Shown one piece after another: positions 3,795 to 28,164 of a DNA stretch of 64,000 bases (its first letter is position 1; each line of letters begins with the position of its first letter). Source of the DNA: an uncultured Bacteroidia bacterium (GTDB lineage Bacteria; Bacteroidota; Bacteroidia; Bacteroidales; UBA932); contig CADBAY010000013.1 of NCBI GenBank assembly GCA_902792815.1, forward strand, positions 1 to 64,000. Direction: 5' to 3'. The notes beneath the pieces were generated by a model. That model saw only the letters and a program-made list of their open reading frames with translations. It searched no databases and had not been told where the DNA came from. The translations under genes and the position numbers were made by a program.

Positions 3795-3857
3795 TGTCAA
3801 TTAATGTCATTAAATACAACTTTTGCAAATATACAAAATAAATGTCAATGTGTGTCA
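3795..3857. promoter_or_regulatory. Two WYL-type operators in divergent promoter
   Basis: Two copies of TGTCA-N5-TGTCA occur, at 3795-3809 (TGTCAATTAATGTCA) and 3843-3857 (TGTCAATGTGTGTCA). In each, the TGTCA units are exactly 10 bases apart and the flanks give partial dyad symmetry. They bracket the minus-strand -7 box TATATTTG at 3826-3833 and lie upstream of the regulator gene at 3925, so they probably serve both autoregulation and the leftward genes. The same motif recurs at 4858 and 27435. Confidence 0.65.
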
Positions 3858-3924: not shown

Positions 3925-4827
3925 ATGGATCAGCCAAAGATTGAAAGGATGCTTCGCCTGATGCAGCTCCTTTCCGGGAACAAGATTTATACGCTCGACG
4001 AGCTGAGCGATACCCTTGACCTTTCCCGTCGTTCCCTCTTCCGCTACTTCGATACGTTCAAGAATGCAGGCTTCGTGGTGCAGTGCATCGGCGATGGCCG
4101 CTACCGGATGACGACGCTCAACAAGGAGTACACAGACCTGTCCCAGTTGGTCTACTTCTCGGAAGAGGAAGCCATCGTTGTCAGCCACCTGATTGAGAAT
4201 CTGGACGGAACCAATGCGCTCAAGGCCGGACTGAAGCAAAAGCTGGCCGCCGTGTATGATTCCACTTCCATCAGCGATTATATCGAAAACAAGGGCAAGT
4301 CCGAGGTTGTGGAGACGCTGGCCAATGCCGTCAAATCCAAGCACCAGGTGGCCCTGAAGGACTATTCCTCTGCCCACTCTGGCAAGTCCAAGGACTATAT
4401 AGTAGAGCCGTATAAGTTCACCAAGGGATATGTGGATATCATTGCCTACGACACAGAGGCCGGACTTAATAAGGTGTTCAAGATATCCCGTATTACTTCG
4501 GTGAAGATGCTGGAACCCTGGAAGTTCGAAGACCGTCACGAGGAGCAGCCAATTGACTCTTTCCGAATGAGCGGGAGTCCCGTCGAGCACGTCAAACTGA
4601 AGTTGACGCTCCGGGCAAAGAATCTGCTTACAGAGGAGTTCCCCATTACCAGCATTGAGGTCACACAGGTCAAGCGCAGCTGGTTCTGGGAGGGTGATGT
4701 TAATGCCATGGAGGGTATCGGCCGCTTTGTCCTTGGCCTCCCGCACGAAGTTTCCGTGGAAGAAGGTCCGAAGCTGAAGGCCTGGCTTACTGAAAATGGG
4801 GCTTTTACCCAGAAAAAGTTCAAATAA
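3925..4827 (+). CDS. WYL-domain transcriptional regulator (BrxR/CapW/DeoR-like)
   Basis: A 300-residue regulator. An N-terminal winged helix (residues 1-65) contains LDELSDTLDLSRRSLFRYFDT as the recognition region. A WYL-type domain at about 130-210 has the variant GYVDIIAYDTEAG followed by FKISRI, and a C-terminal WCX-like domain ends near residue 290. Such proteins often guard phage-defence loci (BrxR for BREX, CapW for CBASS) and are thought to sense a nucleic acid or nucleotide signal through the WYL domain. It lies directly before a large defence island and after the leftward tra-side genes. Four copies of a conserved operator occur near it and at 27.4 kb, which supports local regulation including its own gene. 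Confidence 0.88.
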   Translation: MDQPKIERMLRLMQLLSGNKIYTLDELSDTLDLSRRSLFRYFDTFKNAGFVVQCIGDGRYRMTTLNKEYTDLSQLVYFSEEEAIVVSHLIENLDGTNALKAGLKQKLAAVYDSTSISDYIENKGKSEVVETLANAVKSKHQVALKDYSSAHSGKSKDYIVEPYKFTKGYVDIIAYDTEAGLNKVFKISRITSVKMLEPWKFEDRHEEQPIDSFRMSGSPVEHVKLKLTLRAKNLLTEEFPITSIEVTQVKRSWFWEGDVNAMEGIGRFVLGLPHEVSVEEGPKLKAWLTENGAFTQKKFK

Positions 4828-6899: not shown

Positions 6900-7892
6900 A
6901 TGAAAGAAACATTTATCACCCAGATTACGGAAGCGATGTCCGGTACATTGACAGTAGACCAGATGACCCAGCTGAGCAGCGTCCTTCTTCAAACGCTGTC
7001 TAGCTACACACTCATCGATGAAGGCGGCAAAGTCCAGGAGGACATTGTCACCAATACACGTCTACTGGAGATATTTCTGTCTGCAAAGTTGGTGGAGGGC
7101 TGCTCTGCCAAAACCATCAAATATTACGAGACCACCATCAAACAGTTGTTCAAGTATATGCCTAAGGCCGTCAAAGATTACACGACTGACGACCTTCGGG
7201 CTTATTTGGCCGTTTTCCAGAAGAAGCATAAATCCAGCAAGGTTACCATCGACAATATTCGCAGGATCTTCTCATCCTTCTTCTCCTGGCTGGAGGATGA
7301 GGATTTCATCCTAAAGAGTCCTGTCCGCCGAATCCATAAGGTTAAAACTGGCGAGCAGATCAAGGAGACCATCTCTGATGAGAATATGGAAATCCTGCGG
7401 GACAATTGCAAGAACATCCGGGACCTGGCAATCATTGACCTGCTTTCCTCAACCGGCATGCGTGTCGGAGAGTTGGTGAAGCTTAATCGTGCGGACGTCA
7501 ACTTCAACGAGCGTGAATGCATTGTCTTTGGCAAGGGCAACAAAGAGCGTGTGGTATATTTCAATGCCCGGGCAAAGATTCACCTGCAGCAGTATCTCAA
7601 ATCCCGCAAGGATAAGAATCCAGCGCTGTTTGTGACACTTGATAAACCTCATGAGCGTTTGCAGATCTCGGGCGTTGAGGTTCGCCTTCGCCAGCTGGGC
7701 CGCAGCCTCAAGGTTCCCCGCATTCATCCTCACAAGTTCCGCCGCACACTGGCCACGATGGCCATCGATAAAGGTATGCCCGTGGAGCAGGTGCAGAAAC
7801 TTTTGGGGCACGTTAAGATTGATACTACCATGCGTTATGCAATGGTAAACCAGACTAACGTAAAACTCTCTCACCGCAAATTTATCGCCTGA
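6900..7892 (+). CDS. Tyrosine recombinase within type I RM locus
   Basis: A 330-residue XerD-like recombinase with a SAM-like N-terminal core-binding domain (about 55-155). Its catalytic residues all appear present: Arg in TGMRVGEL (about 186-189), Lys in GKGNKER, HxxR in HPHKFRRT (about 276-280), His in LLGHVKID (about 303) and Tyr in TTMRYAM (about 312). In Bacteroidales type I loci such enzymes rearrange hsdS genes so that target specificity changes. Here the gene sits between hsdM and a split hsdS, and its TGA overlaps the ATG of the first hsdS piece. The likely substrates are the 13-base repeats at 7954 and 9179. Confidence 0.9.
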   Translation: MKETFITQITEAMSGTLTVDQMTQLSSVLLQTLSSYTLIDEGGKVQEDIVTNTRLLEIFLSAKLVEGCSAKTIKYYETTIKQLFKYMPKAVKDYTTDDLRAYLAVFQKKHKSSKVTIDNIRRIFSSFFSWLEDEDFILKSPVRRIHKVKTGEQIKETISDENMEILRDNCKNIRDLAIIDLLSSTGMRVGELVKLNRADVNFNERECIVFGKGNKERVVYFNARAKIHLQQYLKSRKDKNPALFVTLDKPHERLQISGVEVRLRQLGRSLKVPRIHPHKFRRTLATMAIDKGMPVEQVQKLLGHVKIDTTMRYAMVNQTNVKLSHRKFIA

Positions 7893-8653
7893 TGACTGCC
7901 ATACATTCATACAGCCGTCGCAGGCATAGTTTCTTGACCGCGAGGAGGCCAAGAAATCATAATTTAGAGGAGCAAGCGCAAGCCCTGTACAAGTCTTGGT
8001 TCGTTGATTTCGTTCCTTTTATGGATGAAAGGTTCGTAGATTCTGAATTAGGAAAGATTCCTGAGGGATGGCACGTCGGAACTCTTTCTGAATTGGGTGA
8101 TATTGTGGCTGGAGGGACTCCTTCTAAAGCAAAACCAGAGTATTACACGAATAATGGAATAGCTTGGTTAACCCCCAAGGATTTATCAGTAAAATGCATT
8201 AAGTATACTTCCAGAGGAGAGACTGATATCACAGAGGAGGGCTACAAGAACAGTAGCGCCAAGTTGATGCCGCGGGGTTCTATTCTGTTTAGTTCGCGTG
8301 CTCCGATTGGATATATCACCATTGCGAAGGGAGATATTTGCACCAACCAGGGCTTTAAATCAGTTGTTCCCAGGTATGCAGGGACTGGCTACCTTTATTA
8401 CTGGCTTAGGGAGCATACTGACGCTATTGAGTCTCAGGCATCAGGCTCTACTTTCAAGGAGGCGTCTGGTTCTTTGATGAAGTCTTTCCCTGCTATTATT
8501 CCTGACAAGAATGTACTGGATTCCTTTGAAAAAGAACTAGCTCCCATTCTAAACGAACAAGAGATTCTAGAGGAGCAAATTTACCACGCAGAGCAAATTC
8601 GCGACTCCTTACTGCCTCGTATGATGTCTGGAGAGCTTGTTATTACTTGCTAA
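7892..8653 (+). CDS. hsdS: HsdS C-terminal half (specificity subunit, split)
   Basis: A 253-residue product covering the second half of a type I specificity subunit. It begins with about 20 atypical residues and then joins the conserved central region (NHNLEEQAQALYKSWFVDF). It continues with one target-recognition domain (PEGWHVGTLSELGDIVAGG onward) and ends in the C-terminal conserved helix (EEQIYHAEQIRDSLLPRMM). The N-terminal recognition domain is missing. The start overlaps the recombinase stop. Two half subunits can in principle dimerise, so a working split HsdS with the next gene is possible; otherwise it is a storage form awaiting recombination. Confidence 0.85.
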   Translation: MTAIHSYSRRRHSFLTARRPRNHNLEEQAQALYKSWFVDFVPFMDERFVDSELGKIPEGWHVGTLSELGDIVAGGTPSKAKPEYYTNNGIAWLTPKDLSVKCIKYTSRGETDITEEGYKNSSAKLMPRGSILFSSRAPIGYITIAKGDICTNQGFKSVVPRYAGTGYLYYWLREHTDAIESQASGSTFKEASGSLMKSFPAIIPDKNVLDSFEKELAPILNEQEILEEQIYHAEQIRDSLLPRMMSGELVITC

Positions 8654-24698: not shown

Positions 24699-27019
24699 TG
24701 GCAGACAAGAACCTTATATCTTTTTGGGCGTACATACAAAAGTATGTAATCACTATTCCGATTATTCAAAGAGACTATGCTCAAGGTCGCAAGGGGAAAG
24801 AGTATTTGAGGCAGAACTTTCTCACCTCAATTAAACGGGCACTAGATAACGCCAATCCTCCTTTAGTTCTAGATTTTGTGTATGGGGGGCTAAAGGATGA
24901 TGATAAAACAGTATTACCCCTGGATGGTCAGCAGAGGTTAACAACGCTCTGGCTTCTCCATTGGTTTATCGCCTATAACGCGGGGTTTTTAGCAAGTGTA
25001 TCCGAAACGCTTAAACGTTTTCATTACGAAACTCGGATTTCTTCAGATGAATTTATTAAGCATCTCTGTATGCTTGATTACATTGAGGACAGCGGGAAGA
25101 ATAGCCTAAAAAAGCACATCAAGAGCCAGCGGTGGTATAGAACGATTTGGGACTCAGATCCAACCATCAAGGCCATGTTGACAATGATTCAAGGAACTGA
25201 TGTTAAAGACCGTAACGGTTCTGATATCATTGATGGTTTTGTAGAGTTGTTTGAGGGATGTACGAAAAATGATTTTGAAAAATACTGGAAAGTCCTGACA
25301 GAAACGAATCCGATTGTATTCTATGAGTACGCTTTAGGAAAGGAAGATTTGCCTGAGACTGATTCCCTGTATGTTAAGATGAACGCAAGAGGGAAACCGT
25401 TGTCTGATTTTGAGAACTTTAAAGCAGATCTATTTAACTATCTAAAGACAAAGTCTAGTTGTTCTGAAGAAGAACTGAGTGCAATAGGCGCCTGGTTTGA
25501 TAATGCTGGTGCAGATTTATTCTGGAAACATTCGAATAAACAGATTAATGGCTTTGTTATCGATGAAGTTTTTTTTGCATTCCTTCAGAGATATCTCTTA
25601 AAGAAGCTTATAGATGAGACCTCATCTGATGGCATTGAAACAGTCGTTAAGCGCAATGCATTCAAACTGCTGTTTGACAGAAGTAATGACAAACAGCAAG
25701 ATACTTCATACAAGGACTTTAGCGCATATGAGGATTTGGGAAACAAAATCCTATCAAAAGAGACTTTCGCTGTCCTACAAAAAGTGAGTGCATCCCTAAA
25801 AGGGATTGAAGGCATTAATGCTCTTTCTAAAAGTAACTGGAGTTCGGCAGATCCGAACATCATTCCTCAGTATATTGACAAATCAAAACCCTCTGTGGTT
25901 TCCGGAATTACTATAAAGGGGAGACTTATATTTTCAAGTGTAATTGATTATCTGGAGAATAACCCGGGCCAGTTCAGTGCGTCCAGTTTTAATGATTGGA
26001 TGCGTTTCGTATGGAATATTATTGAAGGAACGGATACCTCTGGTTCGGAGAATTTAATTCAAGTATCGAGATTCCTTCATGGCTTTGCTGAGCACTCTGC
26101 AGCTATAATCACGCACCTGGCTGATCTGGATATTAAAAGAGATGAGAGAGATACCGAATTGAATCGTCAATTTGCTGAGGAAATCATCAAAGCAAAACGA
26201 ATAGAGTTTCTTCGAGAGACTAATGATGCAGAATCTGAGAAAGCTCTCTATTCTGCAGAGAGTTCGAATTTCTATAAAGGAAGCATTAGGTTTCTTTACA
26301 CCTCAGAAGATGGCGGTGTAAATTGGAATGACTTCAGTACAAAATTCAAAAACTCATTAATTGTATTCGATCCTAAGGGCGTTGCTCCTAACTTTAGTAA
26401 AGATTCGTTATTACTATGCTTCTTTATTTCTGTTCAAACGAAATGGATGCAGATTAAAGATCTGGTGTTTAGCAATAATGCCGATGAATGGAGAACAATC
26501 CTCAGGCGAGAGCGTTATAGAAGTAGTATTCACAATATACTAATGTCCCCGGACATTGTTAAGCCAGTTGATTCTAGCTATGTTCCCAGACTGGAGCATG
26601 CATATCTAGAGCAAGGGTACGAAGAGCTTAATCGTCAAGTTCAAAAAGATCTTTGCAATTATCAGCTCATGAATAATATTGTAGGGGCAATGGACAATAG
26701 CGGTAGGCTTCATTGGCGATATGACCACTATTGCGTTTACCCGCCCAATGCTAAAGCAGATTGGAAGAAGTATATCATTGCGACACCTAGAAATAGTATT
26801 ATGTCCCAGCTTATTAGCTCCAATACGATCTTGTTAGAAACGAATAGGAGTATTGGTGATAGCGGTTATCTTTGGGGATGGGATATCACCTTTGACTATA
26901 AAGGAAAGACATATTGCTGGGATGCATGGGGAAACCTGAAGTATTATAGTGAAAAACGTCCACAAGTCAAGATAAGCGCTGTTGACGTAGAGTCTTTCTT
27001 GAAGCTTCTGAATTCCTAA
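24698..27019 (+). CDS. Second DUF262 protein of the pair
   Basis: A 773-residue protein with DUF262 hallmarks: PIIQRDYAQGRKGKEYLR at about 19-36 and LPLDGQQRLTTLWLLHW at about 72-88. I see no HNH motif; the C-terminal 150 residues (HWRYDHYCVYPPNAKADW to YCWDAWGNLKYYS) look like a distinct, aromatic-rich domain. Together with the preceding gene it may make a two-subunit GmrSD-like system in which only one partner has the nuclease site. Its stop codon lies in the A-run that forms the T-tract of the convergent small RNA. Confidence 0.78.
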   Translation: MADKNLISFWAYIQKYVITIPIIQRDYAQGRKGKEYLRQNFLTSIKRALDNANPPLVLDFVYGGLKDDDKTVLPLDGQQRLTTLWLLHWFIAYNAGFLASVSETLKRFHYETRISSDEFIKHLCMLDYIEDSGKNSLKKHIKSQRWYRTIWDSDPTIKAMLTMIQGTDVKDRNGSDIIDGFVELFEGCTKNDFEKYWKVLTETNPIVFYEYALGKEDLPETDSLYVKMNARGKPLSDFENFKADLFNYLKTKSSCSEEELSAIGAWFDNAGADLFWKHSNKQINGFVIDEVFFAFLQRYLLKKLIDETSSDGIETVVKRNAFKLLFDRSNDKQQDTSYKDFSAYEDLGNKILSKETFAVLQKVSASLKGIEGINALSKSNWSSADPNIIPQYIDKSKPSVVSGITIKGRLIFSSVIDYLENNPGQFSASSFNDWMRFVWNIIEGTDTSGSENLIQVSRFLHGFAEHSAAIITHLADLDIKRDERDTELNRQFAEEIIKAKRIEFLRETNDAESEKALYSAESSNFYKGSIRFLYTSEDGGVNWNDFSTKFKNSLIVFDPKGVAPNFSKDSLLLCFFISVQTKWMQIKDLVFSNNADEWRTILRRERYRSSIHNILMSPDIVKPVDSSYVPRLEHAYLEQGYEELNRQVQKDLCNYQLMNNIVGAMDNSGRLHWRYDHYCVYPPNAKADWKKYIIATPRNSIMSQLISSNTILLETNRSIGDSGYLWGWDITFDYKGKTYCWDAWGNLKYYSEKRPQVKISAVDVESFLKLLNS

Positions 27020-27023
27020 AAAA

Positions 27024-27334
27024 GGCAGACCTCTGCAGCGGCCTGCCCGTGACAGATTGTGATCCCTGGCAATGGAATGCAATCTGTTAGGTCTGCGTCG
27101 ACCTTAGGGCAGGGTATAAAACAAAGGATGCCGGCCTCACTACTTTCCCTTTCCTTCGAGAGGCTCTGGCAAGCCCAATCACCGGTCCGGTTCCATAGAT
27201 CGGCCTGCATCCAGGGGATGCAGGCGTCTAACGCCGGCTGTAGGTGATTTGTTGAAATTGCCAGATTTCTCTCTAACAGCCCTATCGCAAAACGCTTGTG
27301 TATGTCTACACTGTATGTGTGTCTTTGCTTATTG
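27024..27334 (-). ncRNA. Structured small RNA with antisense loop
   Basis: This stretch has no convincing ORF but shows a complete RNA unit on the minus strand. A -7 box TAAATTTG lies at 27341-27348. A 10-bp perfect hairpin (27203-27225, loop of 3) is in the middle. At the 3' end, stem GCAGACCT/AGGTCTGC (27089-27096 with 27025-27032) encloses a hairpin ACAGATTG/CAATCTGT (27080-27087 with 27052-27059). A T6 tract follows directly, as in an intrinsic terminator. The 20-base hairpin loop contains an 18-base sequence exactly complementary to codons 10-16 of the gene at 27709. The transcript start is estimated from the -7 box. Regulation of that gene is inferred. Confidence 0.6.
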
Positions 27335-27434
27335 ACAAGGCAAATTTAGCAAATTTCTTTGATTCCAACAATCGGCATTCATAAATCGCTGAATATACGC
27401 TACTTGAAAGAATTATGACAAGAAAAACGCCAGG

Positions 27435-27468
27435 TGTCAAAAAGTGTCACCTATGGCCAATAACTTTG
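27435..27468 (+). promoter_or_regulatory. WYL-type operator and promoter of 27709 gene
   Basis: TGTCAAAAAGTGTCA at 27435-27449, within the near-palindrome GGTGTCA-N5-TGTCACC, is followed 16 bases on (from the second TGTCA) by the -7 box TAACTTTG at 27461-27468. This is the same geometry as at 4858. Transcription would begin near 27475, leaving a leader of about 235 bases before the ATG at 27709. The leader includes a hairpin AGAGCCGG/CCGGCTCT (about 27528-27559) and two short ORFs joined by ATGA near 27607-27635. Confidence 0.62.
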
Positions 27469-27708
27469 CATCTTGAAACGCAAATCTGTTAAAGCGTCTG
27501 TTTATCATTTGCAGATCAGAGTTGTGAGAGCCGGTCTGCAGTGATGTATCCCGGCTCTTTGGATTATGCGTTGGAAGCACATAGTAACACTAAGATAGAA
27601 ACCTTATGATAGCACACTACTCCTTCTCAGGATGACCAATACAAGCCGCTTGTATTATTCCAACCGTCGACGGGATTCATTAACAACTCTTTAACTTCTT
27701 TTTTCATC

Positions 27709-27993
27709 ATGAAAAAGACCAATAACAGATTTGCAAAGATCCCTGGCAATGGAATCACCATCCTTCGACACCTCAATGAGGTTATGACACAAATCCAGAC
27801 GCTGGCATCAACCGATTGCCGCGACAGTGCAGCTACACTGAAGAAGTGCGAAGACGAGCTCCTTGGAATCTCCATCGACATCGCCTCCGTCTGCTGCCCC
27901 GGAGAGAACTGGGAATTCGTGTCCGCGCTGCTCAATAGCGCCGGAATCGTAATCCCGAAAGAACTGGATGAAGCCATTCGTGAGGCCGACTAG
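27709..27993 (+). CDS. Hypothetical 94-aa protein, target of antisense RNA
   Basis: A 94-residue, probably helical protein (NRFAKIPGNGITILRHLNEV at the start; several Cys, including CCPG). I do not recognise the family. The DNA for codons 10-16 (GATCCCTGGCAATGGAAT, 27738-27755) is repeated exactly at 27061-27078 inside the small RNA locus. The promoter carries a WYL-type operator. The gene stands alone between the defence island and the fimbrial operon, with which it converges. The tight double regulation suggests a dose-sensitive product. Confidence 0.6.
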   Translation: MKKTNNRFAKIPGNGITILRHLNEVMTQIQTLASTDCRDSAATLKKCEDELLGISIDIASVCCPGENWEFVSALLNSAGIVIPKELDEAIREAD

Positions 27994-28064
27994 CCTGATG
28001 ATGACAGCCGCATCTAAAGGTTGACCAAACAACGCCCGGGCCCGGGTTTACAACTGAACTATCC

Positions 28065-28096
28065 GAAAAAAGCGGAGACCTTCACAGGTGTCCGCT
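28065..28096 (-). terminator. Intrinsic terminator of fimbrial operon
   Basis: On the minus strand the hairpin AGCGGACACCT-GTGA-AGGTCTCCGCT (11 pairs with one mismatch) is followed by T6. It lies about 70 bases beyond the stop of the last fimbrial gene. A CCCGGGCCCGGG palindrome at 28035-28046 lies just beyond it and may help end the convergent 27709 transcript. Confidence 0.8.
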
Positions 28097-28164
28097 TCGG
28101 GTAGTTTAATGTTTAACTTTTAAAACCTTATGAAAAAATCTTTAGAGGTTTAGGTTTTAGTCGT

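Follow-up and report, generated by a model that had tools for sequence, protein, structure and literature searches.

The DNA analysed here (hereinafter referred to as the window) is a stretch of 64,000 nucleotides (nt) from an uncultured Bacteroidia bacterium of the lineage Bacteroidales; UBA932 (assembly GCA_902792815.1, contig CADBAY010000013.1, positions 1 to 64,000), and the element in question is a structured RNA encoded on its minus strand beside a plus-strand gene for a 94-amino-acid (aa) protein. The reading that we prefer, with a probability of about 0.72, is that a divergently encoded antisense RNA controls the gene for this helical protein and is itself gated by a switch-like leader. 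The RNA would be built of two modules, a 5' module belonging to a leader RNA family and, after it, a 3' antisense hairpin with an intrinsic terminator, and the loop of the 3' hairpin would pair with codons 10 to 16 of the divergently transcribed small-protein mRNA. The features on which this reading is based are as follows.

27018 to 27348, minus strand: whole antisense RNA unit including the -7 box and the terminator; matched by the full-length model R2 (the window being one of its training rows), as are the units of relatives
27341 to 27348, minus strand: -7 promoter box TAAATTTG, from the sequence
27052 to 27087, minus strand: antisense hairpin with a perfect 8-bp stem and a 20-nt loop, from the sequence
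27061 to 27078, minus strand: antisense sequence within the loop, the exact complement of the target, from word searches of the genome and the window
27018 to 27048, minus strand: terminator hairpin and T6 (T6 at 27023 to 27018), from the sequence; kept in the five loci with an intact hairpin
27709 to 27993, plus strand: target gene, encoding an all-helical protein of 94 aa (AlphaFold, pLDDT 81, four helices)
27738 to 27755, plus strand: target site, an exact 18-mer from base 3 of codon 10 to base 2 of codon 16

The stem of the antisense hairpin is formed by the arms ACAGATTG (27087 to 27080) and CAATCTGT (27059 to 27052) on the minus strand, which enclose a loop at 27079 to 27060. This loop holds the exact reverse complement of GATCCCTGGCAATGGAAT, a word whose plus-strand copies are located at 27061 to 27078 and 27738 to 27755. 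An earlier note, made from the sequence alone, had reported an 18-mer that lies in a hairpin loop of 20 nt and recurs in codons 10 to 16 of the gene at 27709, as well as a promoter box and a T6 terminator for the minus-strand RNA, and all of these were found in the sequence (TAAATTTG at 27348 to 27341; T6 at 27023 to 27018). Its statement that an 18-base match is beyond chance also held: with up to three mismatches allowed, two matches were present in the window, one of them being the loop copy itself, so that one extra exact match was obtained against 0.06 expected. In the whole genome, GATCCCTGGCAATGGAAT has two exact copies; one further place on another contig (L003), carrying two mismatches, appeared by eye to be unrelated coding sequence and was dropped. 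The word ACAGATT, which the note had emphasized as preceding both copies, is indeed shared, but its spacing differs between the two places and it was given no weight; it does not precede the target site in the genes of the relatives G104, G382, and RGIG4402.

The transcript would extend from about 27334 to 27018 on the minus strand, approximately 310 nt. TAAATTTG, which we take to be a -7 box of the Bacteroidetes type (TAnnTTTG), or a close form of it opens the homologous RNA unit in G104, G382, G396, G307, RGIG4402, and G037. The fold energy of the minus-strand RNA was 4.7 standard deviations below that of dinucleotide shuffles (z -4.71), and the plus strand likewise folds 3.1 standard deviations below its shuffles. 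In the predicted fold, the loop is partly closed by five inner pairs, leaving a 7-nt apical loop (AUUGCCA). A further possible contact, in which the terminator loop (CTGCAG) would touch the target mRNA leader, was dropped, since no joint change across relatives was seen by eye. None of the Rfam 15 families, including the c4 antisense RNA, matched the window at the gathering thresholds, and a scan of 26950 to 28100 at E ≤ 1 also gave no match; at E ≤ 0.5, the loci of eight relatives yielded two matches, both far under the respective cut-offs (23.2 against 100 bits and 18.9 against 376 bits).

Evidence for pairing came from loci in which loop and target have changed together. The antisense hairpin is intact in five loci (window, G104, G382, G396, and RGIG4402), and the target gene is present in four of them. 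The stem is preserved in all five, with three versions of the loop. Exact complementarity between each hairpin and its own gene spans 18 nt in the window and 15 nt in each of G104, G382, and RGIG4402, at coding-sequence position 30 or 33, with loop and target occurring in three versions: GATCCCTGGCAATGGAAT in the window, CCAGATCCCCTGCAA in G104 and G382, and CCAAATCCCGAGCAA in RGIG4402. Across the three versions, two adjacent core positions differ (TG, CT, or GA), and the loops mirror each state. When all five hairpins were compared with six genes, pairing between different versions reached 6 to 9 nt. The longest match to codon-shuffled genes was 12 nt (300 shuffles per locus, four loci), and the remainder of each of the four RNAs matched its own gene over no more than 8 nt. 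In G104, G382, and RGIG4402, the pairing consists of 15 bp followed by a one-base bulge and then a few more pairs. The divergent, adjacent layout of RNA and target is common to these three loci and the window. A correspondence of loop and target in homologues had been set beforehand as the test of the proposal that the element is a dedicated antisense or guide RNA, and such matches were found in four of the four loci having both an intact hairpin and the gene. The antisense half of that proposal is thereby supported; guiding in the sense of directing an effector found no support.

A number of observations weigh against this reading or narrow it. G104 and G382 are close relatives with the same version, which reduces the count to three lineages instead of four, and the co-change is incomplete, one A of the gene being absent from the loop in G104, G382, and RGIG4402. 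Duplex energies separated cognate from non-cognate pairs poorly, the G396 hairpin with the window gene scoring -39.6 and the true window pair -39.8. The pairing site is placed inside the coding region from position 30, away from the start codon. G396 possesses the RNA, and 16 nt of its loop fit the gene of G382, but a search with the G382 protein detected no target gene in this genome, which is 78% complete, and the 9.2 kb of sequence examined contained no match of at least 12 nt. G032 retains a relic consisting of the hairpin and terminator only; its loop resembles that of the window, and the 12 kb examined contained no second match. In another relic, G439 (L033, 1501 to 1738), a hairpin arm is fused directly to a piece of the target gene; by eye, and in comparison with the RGIG4402 gene, the fusion looks like a deletion between the loop and target repeats. 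G037 carries a related RNA with another 3' hairpin together with a homologue of the gene, and the longest words that the two share measure 8 nt within the gene and 9 nt in the stretch preceding it. Finally, the E-values of the covariance models were obtained with a shortened calibration.

The RNA of G307 is cut by the end of its contig. A 21-nt match in G037 (L022, 4950 to 4970 and 7507 to 7527) was considered as a possible second target and set aside; it resembles a terminator. This word belongs to the complement of the 3' hairpin of the RNA and is repeated downstream of another gene at a distance of 2.5 kb, in an orientation that fits either an antisense target or a copied terminator. G073 and G062 (L005 and L006) have a shortened RNA, corresponding to the 5' module, next to a gene pair that we take, from its sequence, to resemble hipAB; no antisense hairpin or target gene was present in the loci examined.

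Four other explanations of the shared word were weighed. Loop and gene might be homologous direct repeats that are held alike by recombination or gene conversion instead of by selection for RNA pairing. The two copies do lie in the same orientation, 677 bp apart, and the hairpin arm that runs into the gene piece in G439 (L033, by eye) is what a deletion between repeats would be expected to leave. The likeness is, however, confined to 15 to 18 exact nt, extended in three loci by a few more past the one-base gap, with at most 8 nt in the rest of the RNA, whereas conversion tracts are usually longer than 15 to 18 nt. Moreover, the A missing from the loops of G104, G382, and RGIG4402 indicates that the copies are not being made identical, and it is the stem flanking the loop that the RNA conserves, not the flanks of the word in the gene. 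We regard this explanation as unlikely.

It is similarly improbable that the locus is a strict type I toxin-antitoxin system in which the RNA is the antitoxin and the 94-aa protein is toxic. Such a system would account for the divergent layout and the short perfect complementarity, both seen in zorO-orzO, tisB-istR, and shoB-ohsC according to excerpts of PMC3919570, and it would suit the location of the window locus within a defence island; but the protein is all-helical and charged with no transmembrane stretch obvious by eye, unlike the small hydrophobic toxins, and pairing would involve an internal hairpin close to the 3' end rather than the 5' terminus of the RNA. A DNA site at both places, recognized by the encoded protein or by another DNA-binding protein, has the same orientation of the two copies on the DNA in its favor and is nonetheless very improbable: on the strand of the RNA the two are complements, not copies, the five intact loci keep one copy in a conserved hairpin loop, and the word varies among relatives yet matches the respective gene in the four loci that have one. 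Chance, or a decayed open reading frame (ORF) fragment, can be dismissed almost entirely, even though looking at all hairpins across the window implies a large search space and G396, G032, G439, and G037 show pairing lost or absent, because the single extra exact match stands against 0.06 expected, three lineages have distinct exact pairs, and the matrix of hairpins against coding sequences nearly excludes it.

Under the preferred reading, antisense control of the gene by the hairpin loop, pairing would most likely begin at the short apical loop and extend to 15 to 18 bp, and the resulting duplex would block translation or open the mRNA to cleavage. Repression is the direction of control that we infer, and the step controlled would be translation or mRNA stability. 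The predicted unpairedness of the target sites was 0.48 to 0.55, compared with 0.40 to 0.43 across the whole stretch. The window mRNA was also predicted to be able to form a small hairpin displaying the complementary bases, which was not seen in the other three. In excerpts of PMC3919570, OrzO is reported to have 18 nt complementary to zorO, of which 15 continuous nt suffice; a comparable system would thus work with the lengths observed here.

The antisense part is a variant within the known divergent antisense RNAs with short perfect pairing. In OrzO/zorO, IstR-1/tisB, and OhsC/shoB of Escherichia coli, the RNA gene is likewise adjacent and divergent to its target, and pairing is limited to 18 to 21 nt (excerpts of PMC3919570); the window, with 18 nt, falls in this range, and the relatives, with 15 exact nt, are slightly under the classical length. 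The three E. coli RNAs pair by their 5' end, whereas the window RNA would use the loop of an internal hairpin close to its 3' end; their targets are small hydrophobic toxins, whereas the site here comprises codons 10 to 16 of a 94-aa helical protein; and, unlike them, the window RNA carries a leader-family module of approximately 175 nt. Regulatory RNAs are also found in Bacteroides, namely the DonS-type RNAs and RteR. The DonS RNAs are described in excerpts of PMC7366714 as cis-antisense RNAs of 78 to 128 nt that are divergent to susC genes; the window RNA differs from them in having no overlap with its target, a length of about 310 nt, and a pairing stretch held in a hairpin loop. To this order of bacteria, that of Bacteroides, the present locus adds a computational case of natural co-change between the loop and the target of a bacterial antisense RNA, and, according to the same excerpts of that 2020 paper (PMC7366714), there is no obvious Hfq or ProQ homologue there.

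Orphan riboswitch and attenuator leaders share with the 5' module a conserved position before an ORF, covarying helices, and mutually exclusive pairings; the module differs from them in that it is not in Rfam 15 and is followed, in the lineage of the window, by an antisense hairpin and not by an ORF. The c4 RNA (RF01695), a structured antisense RNA, exposes loops to an mRNA and lies upstream of its target in the same transcript. Table 1 of PMC2864571 names it for Proteobacteria and phages; the window RNA belongs to a different host group and had no match in Rfam.

The 5' module accounts for two-thirds of the window RNA, and its membership in a widespread leader family, which the earlier note missed, is a separate and larger finding than the antisense part. 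Its parts in the window are as follows.

27113 to 27306, minus strand: 5' module, member of a leader RNA family of approximately 175 nt (model R3, 87.5 bits, E 3e-17; the window is one of the 15 training rows of R3)
27290 to 27296, minus strand: 5' strand of helix P1, AGCGUUU, from family covariation
27223 to 27229, minus strand: 3' strand of helix P1, AGACGCC, from family covariation
27207 to 27212, minus strand: GGAUGC, 3' arm of the apical hairpin and 5' strand of the long-range helix P2, from the sequence and the family helix
27126 to 27131, minus strand: 3' strand of P2 (GCAUCC), a segment of the tail immediately 5' of a U-rich run, from the sequence and the family helix

By eye, P2 of the window pairs in a register that is shifted relative to the family alignment.

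A search of 398 genomes of the bacterial family with model R2 gave 14 matches, including that of the window's genome, several of which showed the 5' part followed by an ORF. Fifteen members, of which 13 measure 171 to 178 nt, were aligned; the alignment contained two long-range helices with compensatory changes in 11 of the 14 pairs, and model R3 was built from it. R3 detected the family in 97 of 295 genomes and 69 of 183 genera sampled from the order (E ≤ 0.001), many with several copies, and in 132 of 400 genomes sampled from the genus (E ≤ 1e-5). The locus thus leads to a covarying RNA family, outside Rfam 15, that is present in about one in three of the genomes sampled from the order.

Covariation was assessed in an alignment of 45 rows (A10), comprising the 15 training members, the 29 best matches of the order search (76 to 101 bits, not used in training), and one weak second match. 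Over six helices with 33 pairs, 90.0% of the cells were paired, compared with 73.6% in shuffles and 33 to 49% when the strands were slid by one to three columns; cells in which both sides had changed numbered 270, compared with 96 in shuffles. P1 and P2 belonged to the model, and their counts therefore lean towards it, while S2, S3, and two small hairpins did not. The strongest covariation signal was that of S2 and S3 (44 rows, the weak row having been dropped). S3 is a pairing between the loops of the two small hairpins, which means that these hairpins can kiss. The local apical hairpin was 98% paired and occupies columns 123 to 129, as does P2, so that the two are mutually exclusive. It is because the apical hairpin and P2 compete that we call the leader switch-like; with two competing sets of helices, the 5' module is probably a switch that sets the amount of downstream RNA made or surviving, and the competing helices make the switch hypothesis directly testable. 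The U-run as a plain terminator became less convincing, since the downstream 3' sequence can pair with a 5' GACAUA in several members (by eye, with weak covariation).

The gene context of the family was examined in 61 members (9 from the family search, 29 from the order, and 23 from the genus, some of the last being close kin), with the window lineage, G037, and duplicates excluded. An ORF of at least 80 aa started within 300 nt downstream on the same strand in 54 of the 61, 30 of them at 44 to 53 nt; on the divergent side, used as a control, such an ORF was present in 28 of 61 and in none at 44 to 53 nt. The window lineage departs from this arrangement, having the antisense hairpin and terminator where other members have the ORF. 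By a crude rule, 24 of the 54 downstream ORFs had a signal-like start. Secreted proteins and EcoRI-type methylases are among the products of the genes that the leader precedes. Eight downstream proteins were compared with Pfam, of which seven were matched to six mutually unrelated kinds: EcoRI-type methylase (twice), BspA-type repeat, LytTR, Big_2/BACON, peptidase C10, and PEGA domain. Family members were found at loci L036 to L044 and L059 to L117. The leader family is absent from Rfam 15 and was not recognized in the titles and abstract openings of the literature searched, although one large published list with which it was not compared, that of PMC8040213, in which structured RNA candidates from human microbiomes number in the thousands, could contain it.

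As a more tentative idea, which we consider unlikely as a whole, the leader might be an undescribed two-state switch that has been rewired in one lineage to gate an antisense RNA in place of a protein gene, forming an RNA-only relay from a signal to loop-loop silencing, and the target might perhaps be a Rop-like RNA-binding protein with a helical hairpin, acting on the loop-loop complex.

The model of the target protein has four helices with a long helical hairpin (AlphaFold, pLDDT 81), and the protein is charged and without an obvious transmembrane stretch, as judged by eye and not by a dedicated predictor. The window protein had no family match in Pfam, PADLOC, PHROGs, or NCBIfam. Among six proteins of the target family, only chance-level matches were obtained (best E 0.061 in Pfam; urease_alph, E 0.0065, in NCBIfam; none in PHROGs), and the two of the six that were compared with PADLOC had no match. 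A fold search of the Protein Data Bank (PDB) with the target protein gave no match at E ≤ 0.001; Tsi2 and Rop variants were among the 50 entries listed, at E 1.6 to 6.1, which is not significant and may be obtained with any helical hairpin.

Three further features concern the promoter of the target gene.

27461 to 27468, plus strand: -7 box TAACTTTG of the target gene, from the sequence
27435 to 27449, plus strand: candidate operator (TGTCA-N5-TGTCA) for WYL control of the target promoter, from a repeat scan
3925 to 4827, plus strand: WYL-domain regulator (PADLOC WYL, E 9e-20)

On both strands of the window, TGTCA-N5-TGTCA occurs at 3795, 3843, and 4858, around the WYL gene, and at 27435, that is, four times against 0.15 expected, which agrees with the earlier mention of a WYL operator as an observation on the sequence. 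The regulator may act on the target promoter. A palindromic form, TGTCA-N5-TGACA, was absent from the window and present in the corresponding region of three of six relatives (G104, G382, and G396; not in RGIG4402, G037, and G307). The 5' untranslated region of the target mRNA contains a hairpin at 27527 to 27560 (GCTGGc-TGCAGGGATG-GCCAGC), and hairpins of the same type were noted by eye in L007, L014, L018, and L029; the type is retained, again by eye, even in G396, where the target gene was not found.

The relatives were reached by several routes. A BLAST search of 200 related genomes with the whole RNA detected, outside the window's own genome, only pieces of 31 to 41 nt in four genomes; three of these led to the 5' motif (L005, L006, and L007), and the fourth (L008) was a false match within coding sequence. 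A protein search in the 200 relatives gave one weak relative (L010). The BLAST route led to G104, which shares the promoter box, the 5' motif, the hairpin stem, and the terminator and has another loop. A model of the 5' motif matched eight of 400 genomes of the genus, including the window's genome. A pattern scan of a collection of genome contigs returned six stretches, four of which were already known and one of which was new (L029, RGIG4402); the remaining one, L027, lies upstream of genes resembling ribosomal proteins and was judged a chance match. A scan of viral sequences gave no match.

In the window and in G104, of which several kb were examined, the order of genes is umuC, variable defence genes, the RNA (leftward), and the target gene (rightward). 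In the window, where umuC and GmrSD were named from Pfam, the variable part consists of a GmrSD-type gene pair, and in G104 it comprises genes that we take, from their sequence, to resemble AbiE. In RGIG4402, a gene presumed from its sequence to be umuC-like, as with umuC in the other relatives, directly precedes the RNA. Downstream of the target gene, the window, G382, RGIG4402, G307, and G037 carry genes that we likewise assume from sequence to be fimbrillin-like. Elsewhere in the window, at 6900 to 8653, a XerC-like recombinase gene is situated between hsdM and hsdS-like pieces (XerC and hsdS being named by eye), and this segment is possibly the hsdS inversion system of a type I restriction locus.
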